Origin: Saprospiraceae bacterium
GTDB taxonomy: Bacteria > Bacteroidota > Bacteroidia > Chitinophagales > Saprospiraceae
DNA length: 41,087 bases
NCBI GenBank assembly: GCA_022841505.1
Contig: JALHRK010000015.1
Coordinates: forward strand, 1 to 41,087
Direction: 5' to 3'
Made by a program: the position numbers and the translations under genes
The notes under the pieces: generated by a model
Told to the model about the DNA's origin: nothing
Databases searched by the model: none
What the model saw: the letters and a program-made list of their open reading frames with translations, nothing else
Part shown: piece by piece, positions 2,618-34,100 of the stretch
Layout: every line of letters starts with the position of its first letter
Position numbering within the stretch: the first letter of the stretch is position 1

Positions 2618-2739
2618 GTGTCTGTCTATAGTCCGATAGCTGCGTTATGTTTGGTTCCAAAATCGGTCATCCCGCCCGAGCGGGACTCCCGTTTTTGGAA
2701 CCAAACATGCCTTGCTCTCGAACTCTAAAGAACAGACAC
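2618..2739 (+). repeat. ~122-bp covarying hairpin element, copy 1
   Basis: GTGTCTGT...ACAGACAC ends; stem TTTGGTTCCAAAA/TTTTGGAACCAAA; inner stem CCCGC/GCGGG. Confidence 0.95.
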
Positions 2740-2801: not shown

Positions 2802-4061
2802 TTACCCTCGAATAATATCCACCGGATCCACCCGTGACGCCCGTCGGGCCGGAAACCAGCCTGCAAACAACGTGGTCAGGAAGCCGAATACAATACCCGT
2901 TATATAATACTTCACTTCAAAAAGCACCGGAAACGTTTCGATGTTGAACCCCGTGCCCGAAGGGAATGGCGTAATGGAGATCAGGTAGCTGAAAAAGCCG
3001 CCCGTCAGCACGCCCAGCACCCCGCCCAGCACGCCGATGATGAGGGATTGCAACAGAAATATACTCACAATATTGCCGCTTTCAAACCCGGTCGCCTTGA
3101 GGATGGCAATATCCTTGAGCTTGTTGAGGATGCTCATATTCATGATGTTGTAAATGCCGAATCCGGCCACGACCAACATGGCAAGCGACACCACAAACGT
3201 CATTACATTCCGGATCACCTCGCCTGCCAGAATGGCGGCATTGGTTGTTTCCCAGTCTTCGGCGGTGTAGCCGTATATTTGCGATAGCGTTTTGGACAAC
3301 GTTTTGGCCTGGGTATAATCTTCCAGCCGAATGACGATGTCGGTGATGTATTGCGGGTCTTTTTGCAAAATTTTCTGCACCGAAGCCAGCGTGGCATAAC
3401 TGCGCATGCCATCCACCGCACTGAATCCGAAAGAGAAAGTGCCCACCACCCGCATCAGCAGAATCGTGCCCTGGGGGGTAGAGATGGAAATGCGGTCGCC
3501 CACCTTCACGTTCATCTTTTCGGCCAATTCGTTGCCCAGCAGGATGCCATCCGGGTTGGTGAGCAGGTCCTCGAGGGCGCCGGTCTCCAACTTGTTTTCA
3601 AGGTCGTACATCACGTTCTCTTTCAGGATGTCGCAACCGATCATGCTGCCGGCGAATTGCACCGAGCCGCTGTTGTAAAACACCTGCGTACTCAGGTTCG
3701 GCGCGGCCTGCTGCACGCCAGGCCATTGCTCTAATTCCCGCAGGATACGCATGCCGTTTTTAATTTTTGGCAATTCACTTTTCGGCTTCTGGTGGTGGAC
3801 GATGTACATCGCATCGGCTGGCCCGCCCTGTTGTTCGATGATGCTTTTGCGGTCGTTTTTAATGGGGTTGTAAATGCGCACGTGCGGCGAGCCGTCCAAA
3901 GCCAGGTCGAGGGTAAACTGGTTCACGCCCTGCATGAAGCTGATCATGACAATGAACATGCTGATGCCAAATGTGACGCCCAGCATGGCAATGATGGTCT
4001 GGCGCTTTTTGGCCAACAAATGCGTCAGCGCAATATCAAGGGCTAATCTCAGGTTTCTCAT
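2802..4061 (-). CDS. ABC transporter permease (FtsX/MacB family)
   Basis: 419 aa; N-terminal TM, large periplasmic domain, C-terminal FtsX-like TM block (AGFGIYNIMNMSILNKLKDIAILKATGF). Confidence 0.92.
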   Translation of the reverse strand: MRNLRLALDIALTHLLAKKRQTIIAMLGVTFGISMFIVMISFMQGVNQFTLDLALDGSPHVRIYNPIKNDRKSIIEQQGGPADAMYIVHHQKPKSELPKIKNGMRILRELEQWPGVQQAAPNLSTQVFYNSGSVQFAGSMIGCDILKENVMYDLENKLETGALEDLLTNPDGILLGNELAEKMNVKVGDRISISTPQGTILLMRVVGTFSFGFSAVDGMRSYATLASVQKILQKDPQYITDIVIRLEDYTQAKTLSKTLSQIYGYTAEDWETTNAAILAGEVIRNVMTFVVSLAMLVVAGFGIYNIMNMSILNKLKDIAILKATGFESGNIVSIFLLQSLIIGVLGGVLGVLTGGFFSYLISITPFPSGTGFNIETFPVLFEVKYYITGIVFGFLTTLFAGWFPARRASRVDPVDIIRG

Positions 4062-13755: not shown

Positions 13756-13937
13756 AATCGCTCCGTTAATTTATGGATGGATAGGGTGTGTATTCTTTAC
13801 ACATACCCACTCTCAAATGTAAAAAAACTAATTGCATCTAACCTAATTTTGATGCGGTAGTTTGCAAAATTTAAAGAAGGATTGTTTGTAAATGCCTCAG
13901 CCTGCGGGGTATTATTTGCGTTTTTCGATAGGAAGGT

Positions 13938-14125
13938 GAGTATTTGAGTATTCGAGGAGTTGAGTATCTGAGTATTCGAGGAGTTGAGTATTCGAGGAGT
14001 TGAGTATCTGAGTATTCGAGGAGTTGAACGTGGTGGGTGTCAAATACTCGAATACTCAAATCTTCAAATACTCAATCTTCAAATACTCAATCTTCAAATT
14101 TTCAAATTAACTAATTTTCAAATCA
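13938..14125. repeat. Inverted arrays of TTYGAGTA-type octamers
   Basis: Left arm is eleven 8-mers starting with GAG on + (GAGTATTT GAGTATTC GAGGAGTT GAGTATCT ...). The right arm has related TTTGAGTA/TTTGAAGA words on minus. A 13-nt centre separates them. Confidence 0.93.
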
Positions 14126-14127
14126 AC

Positions 14128-16563
14128 CTACGGTTTCACCCCCGCATCCCCAACCACCTTCACGTACTTCTCCAACCAGTCAAACTGTTCGTGCAGCAGG
14201 TGCAGGATGTTTTCCCGGCCAGCGTAACCGTGGCTTTCGTGCGGCAGACTCAGGAATTTCACTGTGCCGCCGTTTCCTTTGATGGCGTTGAACAAACGTT
14301 CGCTCTGGATGGGAAAGGTACCGCTGTTGTTGTCGGCTTCGCCGTGGACCAGCAGCAGCGGAGTTTTGATTTTGTCGGCATTGCTGAACGGGCTCATATC
14401 GTGGTACAAATCCGGCGCTTCCCAATAAGTGCGGTCTTCATTTTGAAACCCGAAAGGCGTCAATGTGCGGTTGTAGGCCCCGCTGCGGGCGATGCCGGCT
14501 TTGAACAAATTGGTATGCGCCAGCAGGTTGGCGGTCATGAATGCGCCGTAGCTGTGGCCGCCTACCGACATGCGGTTTTTATCGCCTACACCCATTTCTG
14601 CTAATTTGTTCACGGCGGCTTCGGCATTCATTTTCAGTTGGGCGATAAAATCGTCGTTCGGTTTTTTATCGCCCCCGGTAGCTACGATGGGCATTTCGGC
14701 GTTGTTGAGCACCGCGTAACCCTGGGTGACGTAATACACCGGCGAACCCCAGTTGAGCAAAGTGAATTTGTGTTCGCTTCCGCGAATCTGCGCCGCATCG
14801 GCCGCCGAATTGTATTCCGCCGGATAAGCCCAAATCAGCGTAGGCAAAGGCCCGTCGCGCGTTGGATCGTAGCCTTTCGGCAAATACAAATCGCCGGTCA
14901 GGTCTACCCCATCGGCGCGCTTGTAGCTGATTTTTTGTTTGCTCACCCCTTCCAGTTGCGGATACGGATTGGCGAAAGCCGTAACCTGCCGGTCGGCGAT
15001 GCGCAGCTTCAGGTTTTTGATCCAATAATTGGGCATGTCTTTTTCACCCTCACGGCGGGTGAGCAATTCCAATTTATCCGGATCCATCACCCGCACGATG
15101 TATTCGAACGAACCTTCGGGGCAGCGCCAGAGTTCTTCTGTTTTTTTTGTTGTGAGATCGAACGTGGCTAAGAACGGCAAGTCACCTTTGGGCGAAGCGC
15201 CCGTGGTGTTGTTCATCAGAATTTTATTGCCGTTGTCTATCGTTTTAATGACCCAGCGATCGAACTGGTTTTTTTCCGTTACCGGAAATCCCGGGTTGCT
15301 GTAAGCATCGGTGGTATTGCGTTCCATCAGCTTTTCCATTGCTCCGGTTCCCGGATTGTAGCGGTTGGTGCGCATGAGTTGTTTGCTCCACAAGCCTTCG
15401 GTCACCAATGCGAGGGTGCCATTGCCCCAGGTCGTGTTGCGATAGCGCCATTGCGTTTTGAACAATTCTTTGGCCTCCCCGGTAAAGGGCGCCCCGAGGG
15501 CGTATACCGCGTCGTGGAATTCTACTTCCTTTTTCATGAGACCGCTGTCTAAAGGCATGCACCACACCACCGTGGCCGCTTCGTCGTCGCGCCATTCAAA
15601 GCTGCGTGGCACATTTTGTACGTTGTCGCGACCACTGGGCGACGTTTCGGAAGAGGGGAGTTCGGCTAAGGTTTTCAGCACTTTACCGTTCAGATCGGCG
15701 ATCGCCACGGTTGACGGGAAACCACCTGCAGTCACCAAATAGGAGAAAGGCTTCCGCAGCGTGCGCAACAACAGGTATTTTTTGTCCGGCGAAGCTTGTA
15801 CGCTGCTGTAAATAGCGGGTTGCCCTATTTTTGTTTCCATGCCATTTACATTTTTTACCAATTGTGCGGTGGCGTAAAAAGCAAACAACTGTTCGTCGTA
15901 CGGGCTTTTGATCAAATCCTGGTAAGTGGGGCGCGGCGCGGCTTTCCCATAGTTCTCCTGGATGGTAGGGCCTTTCGGCATCAGCGGTTTTGGCGGGGCA
16001 GCCGATGCCGGTTGCAGCGCGGCACGGTAGAGCAGGGTGTTGTCGTCGTACCATTGGTAACTTCCGCCCATCAGGACATTGAGGGCTGATTTATTAATTT
16101 TAACCGCTTTTTGGGTGGCAACCTCTACCACATAGAGGTCTACCCGCTCATTGGTCGTATGCGTAAAAGCGATTTTTTTGTCATTGGGGCTCCAGCTCAC
16201 ACTGCCGGCGTAAAGCGGCGAAGGCAGCCCGCTGATGGCCATTTCTTTGCCCGTGGCCATGTTTTTCAGGTACAGGTTTTGCAGGAAATTCTGGCGGCTG
16301 GGCGCGTAGTTGTTCGGGTTGATGCGCAACCCGGCGATCCTGAGTTCGGGCCGCGCCAGTTCTTCCACTGAAGGGTAACTGCTGCTTTCGGTGAGCAGCA
16401 TCCATTCGCCTTTGTCGTCGGTACTGACTCCCGGCGCAGGTTTGGCCAGCAACAAATCGGCAATATCTTTGGGCGGCAGTTTGTAGGAAACGTCTTCCTG
16501 TGCAAAAGCGCCGCTTATTAAAAAACAGCAGGCAATGAAGGTGAGCAGTCGTTGATTCATCAT
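14128..16563 (-). CDS. S9 family (prolyl oligopeptidase-like) secreted peptidase
   Basis: 811 aa, signal peptide, catalytic GGHSYGAFMTANLLAHT, C-terminal LLVHGEADNNSGTFP and HESHGY. Confidence 0.93.
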   Translation of the reverse strand: MMNQRLLTFIACCFLISGAFAQEDVSYKLPPKDIADLLLAKPAPGVSTDDKGEWMLLTESSSYPSVEELARPELRIAGLRINPNNYAPSRQNFLQNLYLKNMATGKEMAISGLPSPLYAGSVSWSPNDKKIAFTHTTNERVDLYVVEVATQKAVKINKSALNVLMGGSYQWYDDNTLLYRAALQPASAAPPKPLMPKGPTIQENYGKAAPRPTYQDLIKSPYDEQLFAFYATAQLVKNVNGMETKIGQPAIYSSVQASPDKKYLLLRTLRKPFSYLVTAGGFPSTVAIADLNGKVLKTLAELPSSETSPSGRDNVQNVPRSFEWRDDEAATVVWCMPLDSGLMKKEVEFHDAVYALGAPFTGEAKELFKTQWRYRNTTWGNGTLALVTEGLWSKQLMRTNRYNPGTGAMEKLMERNTTDAYSNPGFPVTEKNQFDRWVIKTIDNGNKILMNNTTGASPKGDLPFLATFDLTTKKTEELWRCPEGSFEYIVRVMDPDKLELLTRREGEKDMPNYWIKNLKLRIADRQVTAFANPYPQLEGVSKQKISYKRADGVDLTGDLYLPKGYDPTRDGPLPTLIWAYPAEYNSAADAAQIRGSEHKFTLLNWGSPVYYVTQGYAVLNNAEMPIVATGGDKKPNDDFIAQLKMNAEAAVNKLAEMGVGDKNRMSVGGHSYGAFMTANLLAHTNLFKAGIARSGAYNRTLTPFGFQNEDRTYWEAPDLYHDMSPFSNADKIKTPLLLVHGEADNNSGTFPIQSERLFNAIKGNGGTVKFLSLPHESHGYAGRENILHLLHEQFDWLEKYVKVVGDAGVKP

Positions 16564-16603
16564 ATCTTATCTTTTTTTTGAAAAGCTGAAATTGAAAAAA
16601 AAT

Positions 16604-17173
16604 ATGGAAAACACCAACAAAGACGGTTGGAAATTGGAACGCTCTGAACCAGGCCCCGGCCTGAAGATCTTCCGAAGCCGGTTCGACTACATGCTCAACC
16701 CCCGCAACGGCAAAACGGAAGCCATGATTATCCTCGAAGGCGCTGATGCCGCCAACATTGTGGCCGTGACACCGGATCGCCAGATCGTTTTTGTTCGGCA
16801 ATACCGCTTTGGCACGGGAACCGACACCCTGGAGTTGCCAGGCGGCGCAGTGAATCCCAACGAACCACAAGCCAATGCCGCCATGCGCGAACTGGCCGAA
16901 GAAACCGGCTACACCGCCCCTGAATGGCGACATCTCGGCAGTATTCCTTCCAATCCGGTGTTTATGAGCAGTTATATCTTCCATTGGTTGGCGCTCGGCG
17001 CAATGCCCACGCTGGAACAAAATCTCGATGATGGAGAAGCGGTGGAAGTGGTGTTGCTCCCTGAATCGGAAGTTTTGGACAAACTCTTAGCCGGCTGGTT
17101 TCAGCATACGCATACGGTGAATGCGTTGCTTCGGTATTTTGTGGAAAAAGGTGATTTGAGAGGGAGAGATTGA
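16604..17173 (+). CDS. NUDIX hydrolase (ADP-ribose pyrophosphatase-like)
   Basis: Nudix box GGAVNPNEPQANAAMRELAEETGY. Start 16604 (MENTNKDGW) or 16592. Confidence 0.92.
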   Translation: MENTNKDGWKLERSEPGPGLKIFRSRFDYMLNPRNGKTEAMIILEGADAANIVAVTPDRQIVFVRQYRFGTGTDTLELPGGAVNPNEPQANAAMRELAEETGYTAPEWRHLGSIPSNPVFMSSYIFHWLALGAMPTLEQNLDDGEAVEVVLLPESEVLDKLLAGWFQHTHTVNALLRYFVEKGDLRGRD

Positions 17174-17197
17174 GAGAGGGAGAGAGAGGGAGGGAGT
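17158..17197 (+). repeat. GAGAGGGA-type octamer array spanning the nudix stop codon
   Basis: GAGAGGGA GAGATTGA GAGAGGGA GAGAGAGG GAGGGAG; TGA 17171-17173 lies inside the second word. Confidence 0.8.
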
Positions 17198-17214
17198 GCG
17201 CTACATATTGTCGG

Positions 17215-17338
17215 GTGTCTGTTTTTTAGAGTTCGAGAGCAAGGCATGCGAAGGCCCCAAAAACGGGATTTTACACGCGTAAATGACCGATTTTGGGGCC
17301 TTCGCATAACGCAGCTATCGGACTATAAAAACAGACAC
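17215..17338 (-). repeat. ~122-bp covarying hairpin element, copy 2
   Basis: GTGTCTGT...ACAGACAC ends; arms shared with 2618-2739 and 30668-30788; 15-bp stem GCGAAGGCCCCAAAA/TTTTGGGGCCTTCGC. Confidence 0.95.
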
Positions 17339-18699
17339 TACCTGATTTGCATCAAAATCCGCCACTCTTTGGGATAGTAATTATTCACCCGGTTCCCGAT
17401 CCCTTTAGCCCAACCCAGGCCCAGCCCTTCGTATTCCACCAACATCCAGCCTTGCGGAACGGGATTAAAAATGGGTGGTTCTTTTTTCAAAAAATGCAAC
17501 GCCTGTTCCCGCTCCAGCGCCACACGCGGCACATCGGGGTGAACGAGGGCGCTTAGCGCGAATTCGGGAGCTGGCAGAAAATCTTTGCCTTTAAACAAAC
17601 CAAGCGGCACGCCGAATGCGGATTGCCGAAGCATGGAACCCAGGTGCATACAATCCGCTACCTGCGCCTCCGGCAACGCCCGGAACGCGCCCTGCCAATC
17701 CTGAAAAACGACGATTCCTGCTTCCGGGGCCAACCAGGGGGCCAGGGATTCTATGTCGGTTTTTGAAGCCGGTTTCAACGTCCAGGCGGGCAGCGATTTG
17801 GCGGCTTTTTCAGCGGATTGATCCTTGCTTTCTTTGCGAAAACACGACAGGTAAAAACCTTCCCCCCGAACACGGTGGGGGTAGCACTGGTAACCTATAT
17901 CTTTATGAACCAGGCCCCATTCGGCAGGCAACGCAAGTTCAAGCGCCTGAAAAGATGCCTGTTCCAACAACCAGGCGGCGTTGTTTTCGTTTTCTTCGTC
18001 GTTGTAGGTGCAGGTGCAGTACAACAGCACGCCGCCGGGGCGAACCAAGGCTGCGGCTTCCGCCAGAATGCGTCGTTGCCGGGCTGAACAATGTGCGGTA
18101 TGGGCCGGCGACCATTCTTTCACCGCGTCCGGATCTTTGCGGAACAAACCTTCGCCCGAACAGGGCGCGTCTACCAGCACCAGATCGAACCAGCCTTGCA
18201 ACGCTTTGAAGTCGCGGCTGTCGTGCTGACTGGTGTGCGTGCAGGGATGGCCCCATTTGGCTATATTGTATTGCAGGGTTTGGTAGCGGTTGCGGATGAC
18301 TTCGTTGGAAAGCAGCAAACTCCCCGCCGGCAATACGGAAGCCAGCAGGGTACTTTTTCCCCCGGGCGCAGCGCACAAATCCAGCACCCGAAGCGGTTGA
18401 CCGGCAGGCACGCATTGCTGAACAGCTGTTGCAACCAGCATCGAAGAAGCTTCCTGCACGTAATAAGCGCCGGCGTGGAATCGCGGATCGAGCGTAAAAA
18501 TCGGGCGCTCTGCGAGGTACCTTCCGGCCGCGTACCAAGGCACCGGCTCCAGGGTCTCGTTTTTCAATCCGCTTTCTTTCCCGGGATTCAGGTGGATGCT
18601 GATTGGCGCAGGCCGCTGGAGGGCTTCCAGAAAGGCAGCCGTTTCTGCGCCAAGCAGGCTACGCATTTGCGCTAAAAAAGGCTCTGGAAGGTTATTCAT
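17338..18699 (-). CDS. 16S rRNA (cytosine-C5)-methyltransferase, NOL1/NOP2/Sun family (RsmF-like)
   Basis: 453 aa; VLDLCAAPGGKSTLLASVL, LVLVDAPCSGEGLFRKD, LLYCTCTYNDEENE; C-terminal PUA-like region ending NNYYPKEWRI. Confidence 0.9.
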   Translation of the reverse strand: MNNLPEPFLAQMRSLLGAETAAFLEALQRPAPISIHLNPGKESGLKNETLEPVPWYAAGRYLAERPIFTLDPRFHAGAYYVQEASSMLVATAVQQCVPAGQPLRVLDLCAAPGGKSTLLASVLPAGSLLLSNEVIRNRYQTLQYNIAKWGHPCTHTSQHDSRDFKALQGWFDLVLVDAPCSGEGLFRKDPDAVKEWSPAHTAHCSARQRRILAEAAALVRPGGVLLYCTCTYNDEENENNAAWLLEQASFQALELALPAEWGLVHKDIGYQCYPHRVRGEGFYLSCFRKESKDQSAEKAAKSLPAWTLKPASKTDIESLAPWLAPEAGIVVFQDWQGAFRALPEAQVADCMHLGSMLRQSAFGVPLGLFKGKDFLPAPEFALSALVHPDVPRVALEREQALHFLKKEPPIFNPVPQGWMLVEYEGLGLGWAKGIGNRVNNYYPKEWRILMQIR

Positions 18700-22840: not shown

Positions 22841-23017
22841 GTTGTTCGTGGTTCGTTAAGGGTTGTTCGTTAGGTTTCTGGATGAATCGGATGCGAGAAC
22901 AGAACGACGTTTCGACTTGCTTCGACTTCGCTCAGTACAAGCCGCTCAACGAACAGCGAACAACCGACAACGAACAACGACTTCTGACCAATCATCAAAT
23001 TTTCAAATCTTCAAATC
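22841..23017. repeat. GTTGTTC-heptamer inverted arms plus TTTGAAGA octamers (copy A, with nested REP-like insert)
   Basis: GTTGTTC GTGGTTC ... on +; GTTGTTC GTTGTCG GTTGTTC GCTGTTC on minus; core GTTCTCGCATCCGATT shared with 30964-31107. Confidence 0.88.
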
Positions 23018-24190
23018 ACCTTCCCCTCTATACGTTGGCACACAATCCACGACCCGGTCGCCCTGAATCAGGTAGAGTACTTTAAAATGCTCGCACAGTT
23101 CTCCAGCTTTGGCGTGTCGGAAAAAGATGGGGTCGCCCAAATGCAACGGTTGCGAGCCTCGGTACAAAATGGGCGTTTGCACTTCTCCTGCGCCTTCGTT
23201 GGGCAAAAGCGAGGCGCCTTCCGGCAAATACGGCGTCGGGAGTTTTGCTTTGCCAGCTGCTCCGGAAGCTACATACCCACCACCGTAGCAGGTAAAAATA
23301 TCAAGCTCGGGCTGACGGGTAATGTCTAATGCAAATCCAGCAGCGGGCAGGTGGTGAAAATGCCGATACCCATCGAACAGGGTAGGCGCATAAAACGCCG
23401 AGCCGGCGGTCACTTCCGTCACGACCGCTTCTTCGGAAGAAGTTTCCAGGCTTCCCGTACCTCCGGCATTCACAAAACGAAGGTTTTCAGCGCCGATGGC
23501 CGCCACGACCTCAGCCCGCAAAGCCCGCACTTTGGACAAAGCCCGGTTTTGCAGCAGCCGGATGACCTGGTTTTTAAAAAACTGTCCGGACACATGATCG
23601 CCCAGTCCGGCAAGCTGTGCCTCGTAGCCCATGATCCCATCCAATCGCAGCCCATCATACTGTTGAATGGTTTCAAAAAGCGCCTTTGCTTGTGCAGCCG
23701 AGCGGATGCCCGAGCGTTGTACCCCGAAGTGGAGTCCGGGAAATTTGGTAGACATATCCACGTCTATACATATCGGGAGTTGCACTTTTTTTTCTATTGC
23801 GGCGCGATTGGCCAAGGCAATGTGCTGCGGGCAATCCACCATCAGCGTGAGGCATTTCCCGCGGGCGACTTCTTCCGCCACAGCGGCCAAATCCGTTGCA
23901 TCACAGGAAGGATAGGCGATCAGCAGGTCATCGAATCCCTGGCGGCTCAAAAAAACTGCTTCCCTGGCATGGTAAGCCATAACGCCCTGGTAGCGATCGT
24001 GACTTTGGAGCACCCGGAACAGCAGCGCCTGGCAACGAATGGATTTGGAAGCCACCCGAATTTGTTTGCTGCCGGCCCTTTTTAACACTTGCCGGACATT
24101 GTTGTCAAAATAATCCAGGTCTACAAAAGCCGCTGGTTTTGAGACGTTACGGAGGGCTTCCCGGTATCGGTTGTATGAATCTGAAGACAT
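23003..24190 (-). CDS. D-threonine aldolase / alanine racemase-fold (type III) PLP enzyme
   Basis: 395 aa; AFVDLDYFDNNVRQVLKRAGSKQIRVASKSIRC; ICIDVDMSTKFPGLHFGVQRSGI; GGGYVASG near C-terminus. Confidence 0.82.
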   Translation of the reverse strand: MSSDSYNRYREALRNVSKPAAFVDLDYFDNNVRQVLKRAGSKQIRVASKSIRCQALLFRVLQSHDRYQGVMAYHAREAVFLSRQGFDDLLIAYPSCDATDLAAVAEEVARGKCLTLMVDCPQHIALANRAAIEKKVQLPICIDVDMSTKFPGLHFGVQRSGIRSAAQAKALFETIQQYDGLRLDGIMGYEAQLAGLGDHVSGQFFKNQVIRLLQNRALSKVRALRAEVVAAIGAENLRFVNAGGTGSLETSSEEAVVTEVTAGSAFYAPTLFDGYRHFHHLPAAGFALDITRQPELDIFTCYGGGYVASGAAGKAKLPTPYLPEGASLLPNEGAGEVQTPILYRGSQPLHLGDPIFFRHAKAGELCEHFKVLYLIQGDRVVDCVPTYRGEGDLKI

Positions 24191-28598: not shown

Positions 28599-28629
28599 AA
28601 GTCAATTGTTAATAAAACTGTATAAAAGG

Positions 28630-28720
28630 GCAAGTTGGCAAGGGGCAAATTTGCAAGTTTGTTTTTTGCCCCTTGCCAACTTGCATTTTGCCAACTTGCT
28701 TCCTGCCCCTTGCCGACTTC
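28630..28720. repeat. Perfect 20-bp inverted repeat of AAGTTGGC/AAGGGGC words plus further words
   Basis: GCAAGTTGGCAAGGGGCAAA (28630-28649) versus TTTGCCCCTTGCCAACTTGC (28665-28684); the right arm continues with the same words. Confidence 0.92.
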
Positions 28721-28804
28721 CCAATTTACGCATAAAGGGGGATTTCCCACCCCGCTATATGCAAAGGAGCAACTTTTGCCGTGCCAATACGTTCTTTATT
28801 ATCG

Positions 28805-28812
28805 TATTTTTG
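28805..28812 (+). promoter_or_regulatory. Candidate -7 box TATTTTTG upstream of TPR gene
   Basis: TAnnTTTG match 47 nt before ATG 28859. Confidence 0.35.
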
Positions 28813-28858
28813 TGGTCCCCGGATCCATTTTACCTACAACAAACAATCAGAAAAGTTT

Positions 28859-30667
28859 ATGCGGCGCATCGTATTTTTGGCGGTATTGATATGGACAAGC
28901 CTGACTCCGGCCCTTGTCGGCGCACAGGATGCTCAGTTGGCGCAGCAGTATTTCCGCGACGGCGAGTATGAAAAAGCGGCACTGTTGTACCAAAAGCTGT
29001 TCGAACAAAACGAGCAGAACGATTACATCTTCGAGCGTTACATCGAGTGTCTGCTGGCTACAGAAGATTTCGCAACAGCCGAGGCTTCTATCAAAAAGCA
29101 GATCAAAAAAGTACCGCAAAACTCCACGAATTACGTGATGTACGGCAAATTGCTGGAGCGCCAGTACCGCGAGGATGATGCCATGGCTCAATACCGCGAA
29201 GGCATCGCCAAATTGCCTGCTGACCGCTACCAGGTGGTGCGCTTAGCCAACGCGTTCATTACGTCCAACAAATATGAGCTGGCAATTGAAGCCTACGAAA
29301 AAGGGGCGGATTTGCTCAAAGATACCCAGGTTTTTTCCTTCAACCTCGGCGATTTGTACCGCATGAAAGGCGATACGCCCAAGATGATCGAAAACTACCT
29401 GAACAGCATTGACGCCGATCCAACCCGCCTGAACAACCTCAAAACGGTTTTTCAGCGCTATCTTTTCCCGGATGATTTCAAAGAGTTGCAAAAACAGCTC
29501 TACGCCCGCATGCAGGACGGCGTTGAGAAAGAATACCACGCCGAATTATTGGGCTGGGTTTTCATTCAGCAAAAAGATTACGCCAGCGCCCTGCGCCAGG
29601 CCAAAGCCCTTGACCGGCGCCTGGTGGAAAACGGCGGGCGCGTGTTCCGCCTGGCAGAAGTAGCTGCCAACGACGGTGATTACGACGCGGCCATCTCTGG
29701 TTATGACTACATTGTGGCACAAAAAGGCCCCGCTTCTTCCTTCTATATTGACGCCCGCACCGAAGCGCTGCGCTGCCGCCGCAACAAAATTGTGGAAGGT
29801 TTTCAATACAAAGAAGAGGAGCTGCGGGCACTGGAATTGCAGTTCAATGCCTTCCTCGACGAATTTGGCCGCACGAAAATCACGGCACCGGTGATCCTCG
29901 ACTTAGCCGAATTGCAAGCCGTTTACCTCAACGACCTCGACCAGGCCATTGCCTTGTTGTCTAAAATGATCCAATATCCCGGTACAGAACCCGCAGTGCA
30001 GGCCATGGGCAAGCTCCGGCTGGCCGATTATTACCTGATGAAAGGAGAAGTCTGGGACGCTACCCTGCTCTATTCGCAGGTTGATAAAGATTTTAAAGAA
30101 GACGTGCTGGGGCAGGAAGCCCGGTTCCAGAATGCCCGGCTCTCGTATTTCAACAGCGATTTTCAGTGGGCACAGGCCCAGTTTGAGATCCTGAAAGCTG
30201 CCACTTCGCGCCTGATCGCCAACGACGCCCTCGACCTTTCTGTGTTCATTATGGACAACCTCGGCTTAGACTCCACCGCTACGGCGCTGGGGATGTACGC
30301 CGATGCGGAACTGCTGGTTTTCCAGAATCGCTTTGATGATGCTTTCCGCAAATTGGACAGCCTGATCACGCTTTTTCCGGAGCATAGCCTTGAAGACGAT
30401 GTGTGGTACCTGAAAGCACAGGTCTATGCCCGCAAGCGCGATTACGCGCAGGCAGCGCTCATGTACCAGGCCGTTATCGAAAAATACCCACAGGACATCC
30501 GCGCCGACAACTCCATGTTCGCGCTGGCGGAACTCCACGAAACCCACCTGAACGATGTGGAAAAAGCCAAAGCACTCTACGAAAAAATCTTTATTGATTA
30601 TTCGGGGAGTACGTTTGCGGTGGAGGCCAGGAAACGGTTCCGGAAGTTGAGGGGGGATAATATTTAA
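28859..30667 (+). CDS. secreted tetratricopeptide-repeat protein
   Basis: Signal peptide MRRIVFLAVLIWTSLTPALVGAQ, multiple TPR-like repeats. Confidence 0.9.
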   Translation: MRRIVFLAVLIWTSLTPALVGAQDAQLAQQYFRDGEYEKAALLYQKLFEQNEQNDYIFERYIECLLATEDFATAEASIKKQIKKVPQNSTNYVMYGKLLERQYREDDAMAQYREGIAKLPADRYQVVRLANAFITSNKYELAIEAYEKGADLLKDTQVFSFNLGDLYRMKGDTPKMIENYLNSIDADPTRLNNLKTVFQRYLFPDDFKELQKQLYARMQDGVEKEYHAELLGWVFIQQKDYASALRQAKALDRRLVENGGRVFRLAEVAANDGDYDAAISGYDYIVAQKGPASSFYIDARTEALRCRRNKIVEGFQYKEEELRALELQFNAFLDEFGRTKITAPVILDLAELQAVYLNDLDQAIALLSKMIQYPGTEPAVQAMGKLRLADYYLMKGEVWDATLLYSQVDKDFKEDVLGQEARFQNARLSYFNSDFQWAQAQFEILKAATSRLIANDALDLSVFIMDNLGLDSTATALGMYADAELLVFQNRFDDAFRKLDSLITLFPEHSLEDDVWYLKAQVYARKRDYAQAALMYQAVIEKYPQDIRADNSMFALAELHETHLNDVEKAKALYEKIFIDYSGSTFAVEARKRFRKLRGDNI

Positions 30668-30788
30668 TGTCTGTTTTTATAGTCCGATAGCTGCGTTATG
30701 CTTCGCCCCAAAACCGGTCATTTACGTCAGTAAACTCCCGTTTTTGGGGCGAAACATGCCTTGCTCTCGAACTCTAAAGAACAGCCAC
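30668..30788 (+). repeat. ~122-bp covarying hairpin element, copy 3
   Basis: Begins at the base after the TAA stop (30665-30667); stem TTCGCCCCAAAA/TTTTGGGGCGAA. Confidence 0.95.
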
Positions 30789-30894
30789 GGGACTCAATGG
30801 GCAGATACATTTAGTAAAAAAAGGCCGCCCCCAAAAAACCAGGAGCAGCCTCTAACGTCATTTTATCGCTTATCTTTAACACCGACGCCTGGTG

Positions 30895-30963: not shown

Positions 30964-31107
30964 GTTGTTCGTTGAGCGTTGTTGGTTCTTCGTTAGGTTT
31001 CAGAATAATCGGATGCGAGAACAAAACGAACAACGAACAACCGACAACGAACAACCGCTCCTGCCCCAATCTTCAAATTTTCAAATTAACACATCTTCAA
31101 ATCAATC
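30964..31107. repeat. GTTGTTC-heptamer inverted arms plus TTTGAAGA octamers (copy B)
   Basis: Shares core TCGGATGCGAGAACA and flanking word arrays with 22841-23017. Confidence 0.88.
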
Positions 31108-34100
31108 TATCCTCACCATTTTCCCCGTTGCTGTATGCCCCAGCGCTTCGATGCGGTAGAGTAATACGCCGGCAGCGAGTTGGCGTTCGGCCTGAAATTC
31201 CACTTCGTGTTTGCCCGCGTCGTAGTAGCCGTTGAGTTCCCACACTGTTTTGCCGGAAAGGTCGCTGACCACGAGCCGCACCTGAGAAGCCGCCGGCAGG
31301 TTGAAGCCGATGGTGGTTTCATCGCGGAACGGGTTCGGGCGATTTTGGTACAACTCGATCCGGTCGTCTGGTTCGGCGTCCGGTAGGAAAACTAAACTCA
31401 GCGGCAGCGCCTGGTCGGCTTCGTCGTAAGCTTCTGCTTTTGTGATGCCCGAATGCAGTGTAAACGCCTGGCTCATATCCACGTTGTCGCTTGCGCGGAA
31501 AACCAGCGTAATCAGCACTTCGCTATCCGGAGCGCCAGCCTCCTGGGGCCAGTTCCAGCTAAACGTCAGCAAGCCGTCCAGCAACTCCTTCGAACCGAGG
31601 TGCTCTTCCTGAAGGATGCCATTTTCGATGCCGATCAATTCGAGGTCGTCCGCGTCAAATTGCAGGGTTCCCTGTAAGCCTTCCAACCCTTCAATGCCGG
31701 GCGCTTTCAGCGTCAGGTGACAGATGTCACCAGGTGACAGCATTTTGCCTGTCGCTTGCAGCACAAAAGGCGCCCGGGTATTGCGGTTTTCCGCCTGCTG
31801 GAAATTGAACTGCGCGCTGCCATTGATGTCGCCGGTTTTTACAGCGATGAAATCCTCATTCACCAGATCGCTGCTCAGGTTCGTCAGGCTGATCACCTGT
31901 GGGAAACTTTCCTGCCAGGGATTCATCGCATTGGGGAAAGCGTAATTGGCATCTACAAAACGCCAACTGGGCACGTTGGGGAGTTCAGTGGAAATGCCAA
32001 GAATTAACTTGCGAAGCAAAACAACATCTAAGGTCGTCACCGAACCTGAGCCATTCGCGTCGGCAGCGATGAGTTTATACGGCGAATTCAAAAGTTGAGT
32101 GCCCAGAATATGCCGGGAAATCAATACCAGGTCAATGGTGGAAACCCCGTTCATCCAGTCGCCGGGGCGCTGTGGCCGGATGGTGTATTCGTGTCCTGTT
32201 TCCAGGCCACCCAATTCGTAGGCGCCATCCACGCCGGTCGTATCCATCACCGGCATCGCTTCGGCCGGTCGCAGACTCACCCCTTCCACCGGCTCCCCGG
32301 ATTCGCTGATGATCAGACCCGCCACGCTGGCAATCGTAGTGGTTGGGAGGAAACCGCCACAAGCTTGTGGCTGGTTGTCCTGTACGGTGAGGAACGCTTC
32401 GCAGAAAGTGAAGTTCGGTCCGCCAATTGTGCCATTTGGCTGTTGTAAAAGCGGATTGTAAGCGTTGTCCCAGGCATACAACCGCACCAGGATGATGCCT
32501 TCGTCGTCGCAGGTCAGGAGCAGGCTGTCGTGGCCCGGGTTTGGTAAATCTATGCCGTCCAGCACGTCTTGTGAACGATGGATCGAATAGCGGATCGGGC
32601 CGGAACAGGTTTCAATAGCCGGGCTTCCGATAAAATTCAAGGCGGGCAACACAGTAAAACCGCCATCAACATCGCCATCGCCGTCAATATCCACACCCGC
32701 GGGTAAGGGTTGCAACACCATCGACAGGTTGGTTAGGCAAGTGGGCGCGGCGGCTATACAATCACTCACCTGGAAAGGCAGGGTGCTTTGAGCCTGATTG
32801 CCGCAGGCGTCTGTTACCTGCACCACAAATGCATGCAGGCCGATGGGGTAATTAGCCCGGATATTGTAGTTCGGATAAGCTCCAAACAAAGCAGTTGCCG
32901 TCACTTCCTGATCCAAAGAGCCGTTGCGGCCCAGGTCAATAAAAACCTTGACCACGACGGGGCCAGTTTGGCAGGATTGCTGCACGGTAAAGGCCGCAGT
33001 GGCTTCGCCCAGACAAGTATTGTTGTTAAAAGAACAGAAAGAAGTTCCTCCCGGACTAACCGAAATCACCGGAGGTACGTTGTTTTGCACCTTAATGACT
33101 TGGGTATAGGTCCAGTAACCATTGCTGGCAACAACCTCCCGCCAGTATCCGGCGGGGTTATTGCCGCCCGGGCAGGAAGGCCCGCGTGTTCCTGCGGCTG
33201 GAATGGCATTGGCAGGATCGTTGTCGCGGTCAATCACAATTCCATTGGCGCGGCGCAAGATCCAGACGTCTTCATCGCCGGGTTCGCCGTCGCAATCTTC
33301 ATCGCGGCTGATTTCTATGGCCGGATCGCTTCCATTGTATTCGCAATGATTGATGATGTGGTACGTGCGGAATATTTTATAACAAGCCTCTCCGGGAGCT
33401 GATAGTTGTACATCCTGCACGCTGAGGACGAAGCGGTCGCAACCAAGCGCAATCATTTGAGCCGTATCCGGCGCAGGTACTACGCAGTTGACACTGAGGT
33501 CTTTCGGTAATTTGATGTTGTAAATATTGGAGGGCTGAATGGTTATCTGTTGTTGGCAGGTTCCAAGCGAAGTATTCCCAAAGGCATCGCTTGCCCGGAA
33601 GCGCCGGGTAATCGTGCCGCTGCCACACTGATTTAGGGCGACAATCGGACTCAGTTCCTCAGCCGTTGCGCCTGCACAGTTGTCTTCCGCCCCCGGGGCG
33701 CCGAACAGCGTATTCAGTTGCGCCAGGTTGTTGGGGTTAAAATTCGCCGGCAGGTTGCTGCAAAGCACGCTCACGGCATTCGGCGCTACACAGGTTGGCC
33801 GCGAATTGTCTTCGATGGTTATTTGCGTGATGCAAACGCTTTGGTTGCCGTTCAGATCGGTGGCACGCAATTCTGTGTGCATGTCAGAACCCGCATCGCA
33901 GCAGTAGAACTGGACAGAAGGCCCCCAGGCGGTATAGTAAGGCGTCACTGGCTGGCAAGTAACCGGGTCTTTGGTGATCATTCGGCGCACCTGGATGGAA
34001 GCCAGTCCGCAGGGATCATTGCTGCCTTCATCCACGTCCGAGGCCAGTAAGGTTCCAACGCTGCCGCCCAGCGACATCGTCAACTGGTCGTCACAAACGG

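Follow-up and report, generated by a model that had tools for sequence, protein, structure and literature searches.

A ~145-bp hairpin element of Bacteroidota inserts in TAnnTA and often comes to lie at the stop codons of full-length genes

A hairpin element that abuts stop codons in a Saprospiraceae genome is probably a non-autonomous MITE of ~145 bp, folded as one long hairpin, that inserts in TAnnTA and owes its residual docking at stops and its orientation to selection. The window, which is the whole stretch of 41,087 nucleotides analysed here, corresponds to contig C15; the draft genome comprises 7.5 Mb in 999 contigs. The copies in the window and their neighbouring genes are as follows.

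2618..2739, plus strand: copy 1, the same element, away from stops; the nearest facing stop is 63 nt past its right end
2802-4061, minus strand: MacB/FtsX-like gene to the right of copy 1, its end 63 nt from the copy
16592..17173, plus strand: convergent NUDIX gene flanking copy 2 on the right, its stop 42 nt away from the inner right tip
17192..17214, minus strand: outer right arm of copy 2, decayed; the consensus CCGACTAAATGGACAGACACTA is lost and the target duplication unreadable
17215..17338, minus strand: core hairpin of copy 2, from tip GTGTCTG (17338) to inner CAGACAC (17215), read from the sequence
17338..18699, minus strand: host gene of copy 2, RsmF-like 16S rRNA methyltransferase, 453 aa, C-terminus full-length (Pfam PF01189, PF17125, PF13636)
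28781..30667, plus strand: host gene of copy 3, TPR protein (Pfam TPR), stop TAA
30661..30666, plus strand: putative left target copy TATTTA of copy 3, including the TA of the stop, assigned by analogy with the duplications of other copies
30668..30788, plus strand: core hairpin of copy 3, running from TGTCTG to an inner CAGCCAC; A at 30667 replaces the consensus tip G
30789..30808, plus strand: outer right arm of copy 3, with the end CAGATAC, read in the same way

We observed that both junctions were as the first-pass annotation had described them. The RsmF-like gene ends CAGG-TAG on the minus strand, and the G at 17338 is also the first G of the tip GTGTCTGT. The TPR gene ends ATT-TAA, and the element runs from 30668 (TGTCTGTTTTTATAG). 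A covariance model matched copy 2 with 137.5 bits (C15:17214-17338; fold z −8.8) and copy 3 with 131.2 bits (C15:30667-30789; fold z −4.6). The right target copy of copy 3 is probably ATTTAG (30809-30814), with one T missing, again by analogy. Besides the hairpin element, the window has intergenic repeat blocks at 13930-14130, 22841-23031 and 30964-31109. They include 8-nt units (GAGTATTC/GAGGAGTT) with an inverted partner, and two GTTGTTCGTT...AACGAACAAC blocks followed by TCTTCAAATTTTCAAAT that 22841-23031 and 30964-31109 have in common. Low-complexity TTGCCCCTTGCC repeats, direct and inverted, lie between genes at 1872-1918 and 28625-28720, and similar GGCAAGGGGCAA runs occur 3′ of genes in the sister genome (G001, same genus).

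The element is present in high copy number. The exact tip 15-mer had 40 matches in the 7.5-Mb genome (reversed control, 0), and with up to 3 mismatches the left 24-mer had 204 and the right 24-mer 185 (reversed controls, 0). We read ~130 loci individually, chosen mainly for well-kept left ends; genes were ORF calls made without a gene finder, and model E-values are rough. Flank alignment placed the true right end ~23 nt beyond the inner CAGACAC, at a second CAGACAC, so that the right tip read inward is GTGTCTGTCCATTTAGTCGGG-TGTCTGTTCTTTAGAG and the full element, ~145 bp, has the ends GTGTCTGT...ACAGACAC. These form terminal inverted repeats at the left and outer right tips, as in a MITE.

A consensus hairpin built from 69 copies has 43 pairs, with double compensatory changes in 21, and a well-kept copy gave a fold z of −9.4. 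Sequence is conserved only at the tips, at CCGATAGCTGCGTTA, at the apical TCATTTACnnnnGTAAACTCC and at GCCTTGCTCTCGAAC; the stem between them is free in sequence but paired. The core can be written CTGCGTTA ... TCATTTACnnnnGTAAACTCC ... GCCTTG, with fixed asymmetric internal loops, freely covarying stems and an apical loop whose length varies between cores in other genomes. This covariation may reflect selection on RNA or on single-stranded DNA, or template switching within hairpins, and is no proof of function. Rfam gave nothing at the gathering threshold in the window except a tRNA, and on six loci at E ≤ 5 it gave weak chance-type matches only. An integron attC site was set aside as an identity for the hairpin, since its copies occur one at a time, dispersed among ordinary genes. 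Another palindromic repeat (CATTTCGACTTCGCTCAATGACC / TTGAGCGGAGTCGAAA) is nested, mostly apically, within copies L002, L003, L008 and L022.

To locate the insertion target, we compared the two flanks of each copy. They matched in one register only, with no signal in the other registers from 3 to 13, and the middle bases of TAnnTA agreed between flanks (z 3.9 and 2.7 versus shuffled pairs). A perfect 6-bp duplication was seen in 11/64 copies versus 2.4 expected (P < 2e-4), the duplications of most copies having decayed. Related elements in three other genomes (G203, G059, G210) had perfect duplications in 9/12 cases, at length 6 only. The single register and the duplications in relatives indicate that the element inserts into TAnnTA with a 6-bp duplication and that G and C are its own end bases. 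An 8-bp duplication, CTAnnTAG, was dropped: the left base at −8 mismatches the right C, and the base at −1 mismatches the eighth right base, which likewise makes G and C part of the element.

We next measured the distance from the left tip to the nearest stop, as the stop position relative to the first T of TGTCTG. The left tip lay 0-12 nt past the stop of a gene in 95/134 elements. Offsets were 0 (33 elements), −1 (11), −2 (2), −3 (10), −4 (32) and −5 (4), with five more out to −12 and none of the 134 from −13 to −40. The first-pass annotation had expected enrichment at 0-1 nt; there was enrichment at 0, but the peak was not limited to 0-1 and a second one stood at −4. TAA and TAG stops offer a TA, so that insertion can start within or just after the stop. 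At offset 0 the duplicated target ends with the TA of the stop, and the G of the element completes TAG; at −4 the target begins with the stop, which stays untouched. TAG is thus expected at offset 0 and mixed stops at −4, and the gene's own stop was TAG in 27/29 cases at offset 0 versus 11/28 at −4 (P = 2e-5, Fisher's exact test). At one locus (L070) the duplicated TAAGTA spans the last sense codon (TAT-AAG-TAG), and the Tyr-Lys is conserved in the sister.

The orientation of the element was also biased. The upstream gene pointed at the left tip in 113/134 elements. Between tandem genes the left tip faced the upstream gene 69 times and the right tip 13 times (P = 2e-10, binomial test). Between convergent genes the left tip was at a stop in 35/41 cases and the right tip, where the right arm was intact, in 10/18; only 6 elements lay between divergent genes. 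Given this bias, read-through from the upstream gene would yield a transcript in which a given strand of the hairpin comes straight after the stop.

Empty sites show what the element changed on arrival. We searched the same-genus genome with the C-terminal 60 residues of 50 host genes and aligned 30 orthologues. The comparison, which the first-pass annotation had proposed, found 28/30 sites empty and 2/30 with the element at the same junction; with its length of ~145 bp, lack of coding sequence and ~200 copies, the element again resembles a MITE. The stop was at the identical codon in 29/30. In Saprospiraceae bacterium MAG_1 (JABWAJ010000032.1), the source of the nearest named RsmF orthologue found (80% identity), the gene likewise stops at this codon, which is TAA there, and the element is absent. 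The claim that the host coding sequences are full-length at their C-termini was thus borne out. The possibility that ORFs entering the element simply meet TAATTAG in two of three frames, so that the stop says nothing about the host gene, had in its favor that a duplicated TAnnTA plus the tip G does give stops in two frames; the end codons shared with the orthologues refute it, and we give it next to no weight.

Ten TAG stops at offset 0 were compared with the sister, which has TAA (8) or TGA (2); for RsmF, MAG_1 has TAA. The difference shows that the first G of the element completes the stop. Copy 3 is the converse case, with its own TAA (A replaces the tip G) versus TAG in the sister orthologue, where the site is empty and the end codon the same. 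The earlier proposal that the tip supplies the stop therefore stands only as far as the third base is concerned; the codon itself was already the stop of the host gene, and no new one arose within the coding sequence. The two doubly occupied sites (L063 versus L227, L079 versus L238) have identical junctions and very different hairpin stems, for which fast stem turnover, gene conversion and independent insertion at the same stop are alternatives.

To apportion the docking, we modelled insertion by drawing the site from the whole pre-insertion spacer (median 40 nt) with a leave-one-out TAnnTA matrix alone. The model expected 24.7/47 elements at offsets 0 to −4, and we observed 41 (z 7.3); at offset 0 alone, 12.2 were expected and 13 observed. 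Short spacers and TAnnTA are thereby predicted to account for about 60% of the docking. Falsely long downstream ORFs shorten the spacers and raise the expectation, so the excess may be underestimated. The target is palindromic and does not explain the orientation bias. The suggestion that the element chooses its target at the stop codon was right in that the excess and the orientation bias are real, but such a choice is needed only in part, as stops supply TAnnTA and spacers are very short. Targeting and selection both fit the leftover excess and the orientation bias.

Our preferred reading, a MITE filtered by selection, would have the concentration at stops follow mostly from the target motif and the very compact spacers. 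The remainder and the orientation would come from selection, insertions elsewhere or in reverse harming the host or the downstream gene, while a sense-strand hairpin may be tolerated or even useful as a 3′-UTR structure that influences mRNA ends, a role suggested for ERIC in Yersinia. Against it stand the part of the docking that spacer and motif leave unexplained, the decayed duplications of most copies, the outcome of the searches below, which yielded no autonomous partner or transposase with the ends of the element, and the orientation in other genomes, which amounts to no more than 22:11 (P = 0.08) when gene arrangement by itself is counted. That same unexplained part, and the tandem orientation of 69:13 despite a palindromic target, would suit a transposase or complex that recognises gene 3′ ends (a terminating ribosome, a transcript or a terminator structure) and so sets both position and orientation. 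The youngest copies, those with a perfect duplication (only 11), also look broadly like old ones, with 8/11 at a stop and an orientation of 6:2. At offset 0, however, the motif model suffices, and in G203, where duplications are fresh, only ~4/10 copies are at stops and the tandem orientation is 3:4. This lower share at stops favors motif plus filtering over stop recognition. We also know of no transposase that reads stop codons, and we consider targeted insertion unlikely. Sense orientation and proximity to stops recur in many genomes with differing outer stems, and the strong covariation comes with two fixed internal loops; both would fit a domesticated 3′-UTR element whose hairpin is kept for stabilising or ending the upstream mRNA, position and orientation being adaptive and mobility only the means of delivery. 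Yet only 2/30 sites are common to the sister, with wholly different stems there, which points to high turnover and gives little sign of conserved single copies. The sequence behind the hairpin has no U-tract, so it is no canonical intrinsic terminator, and we regard domestication as quite improbable.

The enzyme that moves the element was sought along two lines. A search of the element's own genome for an autonomous partner with the end pattern TAGTGTCTGTCR found none; it returned one chance match and one further hairpin copy, which has TATTTA duplicated on both sides. DDE_Tnp_1 genes in five carrier genomes included no transposon with the ends of the element. Membership of the REP/REPIN family, whose mobilising enzyme is a RAYT (a tyrosine, single-strand transposase), would fit the high copy number, the hairpin, the position at gene 3′ ends and the tip TAG, as in GTAG REPs (PMC3733652), and Y1 transposase genes are present in most carrier genomes tested. 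But the element makes target duplications. To our knowledge, IS200/IS605-type enzymes make none. Furthermore, the core lies beside 0/21 Y1 genes in carrier genomes and the element beside 0/2 in its own, and G037 has seven copies and no Y1 match. The GTAG/CGTC end tag is absent, the left flank being TAnnTA plus G with a varying base before TAG, in a unit of ~145 bp. We hold this origin to be very improbable. One RAYT-like Y1 transposase gene of the own genome (194 aa) is at 1423-2007 of locus L111 (G000:C308); the short ORFs around it suggest a different local repeat rather than the hairpin element.

We also assessed the distribution of the element across the class. A covariance model built from the own genome only matched, among 39 relatives, the sister genome, G037 (7 loci, best E 2e-16) and G034 (1 locus). 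Extended with those genomes, the model had matches in 19 more, distributed patchily over 12 families of the class; several of these have 10 or more copies. Carriers have the core in common and differ in the outer stems, which are of a TGTCTG type, with the 6-bp TAnnTA duplication, or a GGGCATC type. In G182, of the latter type, the duplication is 4 bp and TTAA-like (9/12 perfect versus 1.25 expected, at length 4 only); G037 has similar ends, GGGTAC/GGGCATC. With their flanks, the ends of the two shells would read TAnnTA-GTGTCTGTC and TTAA-GGGCATCTCTAA. Where a gene runs into one side of the element in the other genomes, its stop is ≤12 nt from the left tip in 25/40 cases and from the right tip in 3/30 (P = 7e-6).

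These sequence comparisons suggest that the hairpin core outlives its terminal shells, of which there are at least two, distinct in their duplications. We put forward tentatively, and at less than even odds, that this RNA-like core moves through Bacteroidia in both shells and stays in sense orientation after stops in each, which would make the core and not the shell the selected unit, a mobile 3′-UTR module spread by different transposases. In G203, a 231-bp element (L366, 702-933) has the same ends (G(C/T)G(T/C)CTGTCCATAGAGTC), a near-duplicated flank and an unrelated interior, so the shell also exists without the hairpin core. In G292, two or three elements form head-to-tail arrays (L352, 1261-1679; L355, 1258-1527; L354, 1156-1424) with a period of ~147 nt, the sum of one element and a shared 6-nt target.

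Several known repeats resemble the element in part. GTAG REPs frequently provide neighbouring ORFs with their TAG stop and lie no more than 20 bp from 3′ ends; they too are high-copy hairpins close to the 3′ ends of genes, chiefly where the adjoining genes are co-directional or convergent (PMC3733652). They differ in being 20-40 bp long, GTAG-tagged and RAYT-associated, whereas our element is ~145 bp, has tips that vary by shell, makes duplications and shows no RAYT link. ERIC, a ~127-bp MITE, has a hairpin, inverted ends and a gene 3′ end position in common with it; in Yersinia, ERICs at gene 3′ ends have an orientation-dependent effect on the upstream mRNA (decay) that was tested experimentally (De Gregorio 2005, cited in PMC2229807 and PMC10969869). 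ERIC has TA termini and a TA duplication, in contrast to the 6-bp TAnnTA of this element, which belongs to another phylum. QMITE2 of Coxiella burnetii is also a MITE (150-190 bp); it has direct repeats and occurs mostly in 3′ untranslated regions, but its duplications (7-11 nt) vary in sequence and it sometimes lengthens the host protein, unlike our element, which leaves protein length unchanged (PMC5896051). RUP of pneumococcus and Correia/NEMIS of Neisseria, going by their description in PMC2229807, are similarly small and mobile, with inverted ends, duplications and TA termini; stop-codon docking and a common hairpin core set our element apart from what is described there.

The literature that we searched contained no description of this Bacteroidota hairpin family. 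ERIC elements that overlap stop codons reportedly have one preferred orientation. The phenomenon has precedents in published REPs that supply TAG stops and in the oriented ERICs at gene ends. What appears to be new, judging from the literature searched, is a Bacteroidota-wide MITE family whose hairpin core occurs in two or more terminal shells that differ in their duplications. It provides an unusually clean worked example, backed by empty sites, of a mobile element entering a stop codon and rebuilding it from its own first base, and one in which docking can be apportioned among target motif, genome compactness, and selection or targeting. Cores in different shells would serve as natural replicates for asking whether mobile hairpins after stops influence where bacterial mRNAs end and how, which to date has been tested chiefly with ERIC in Yersinia.
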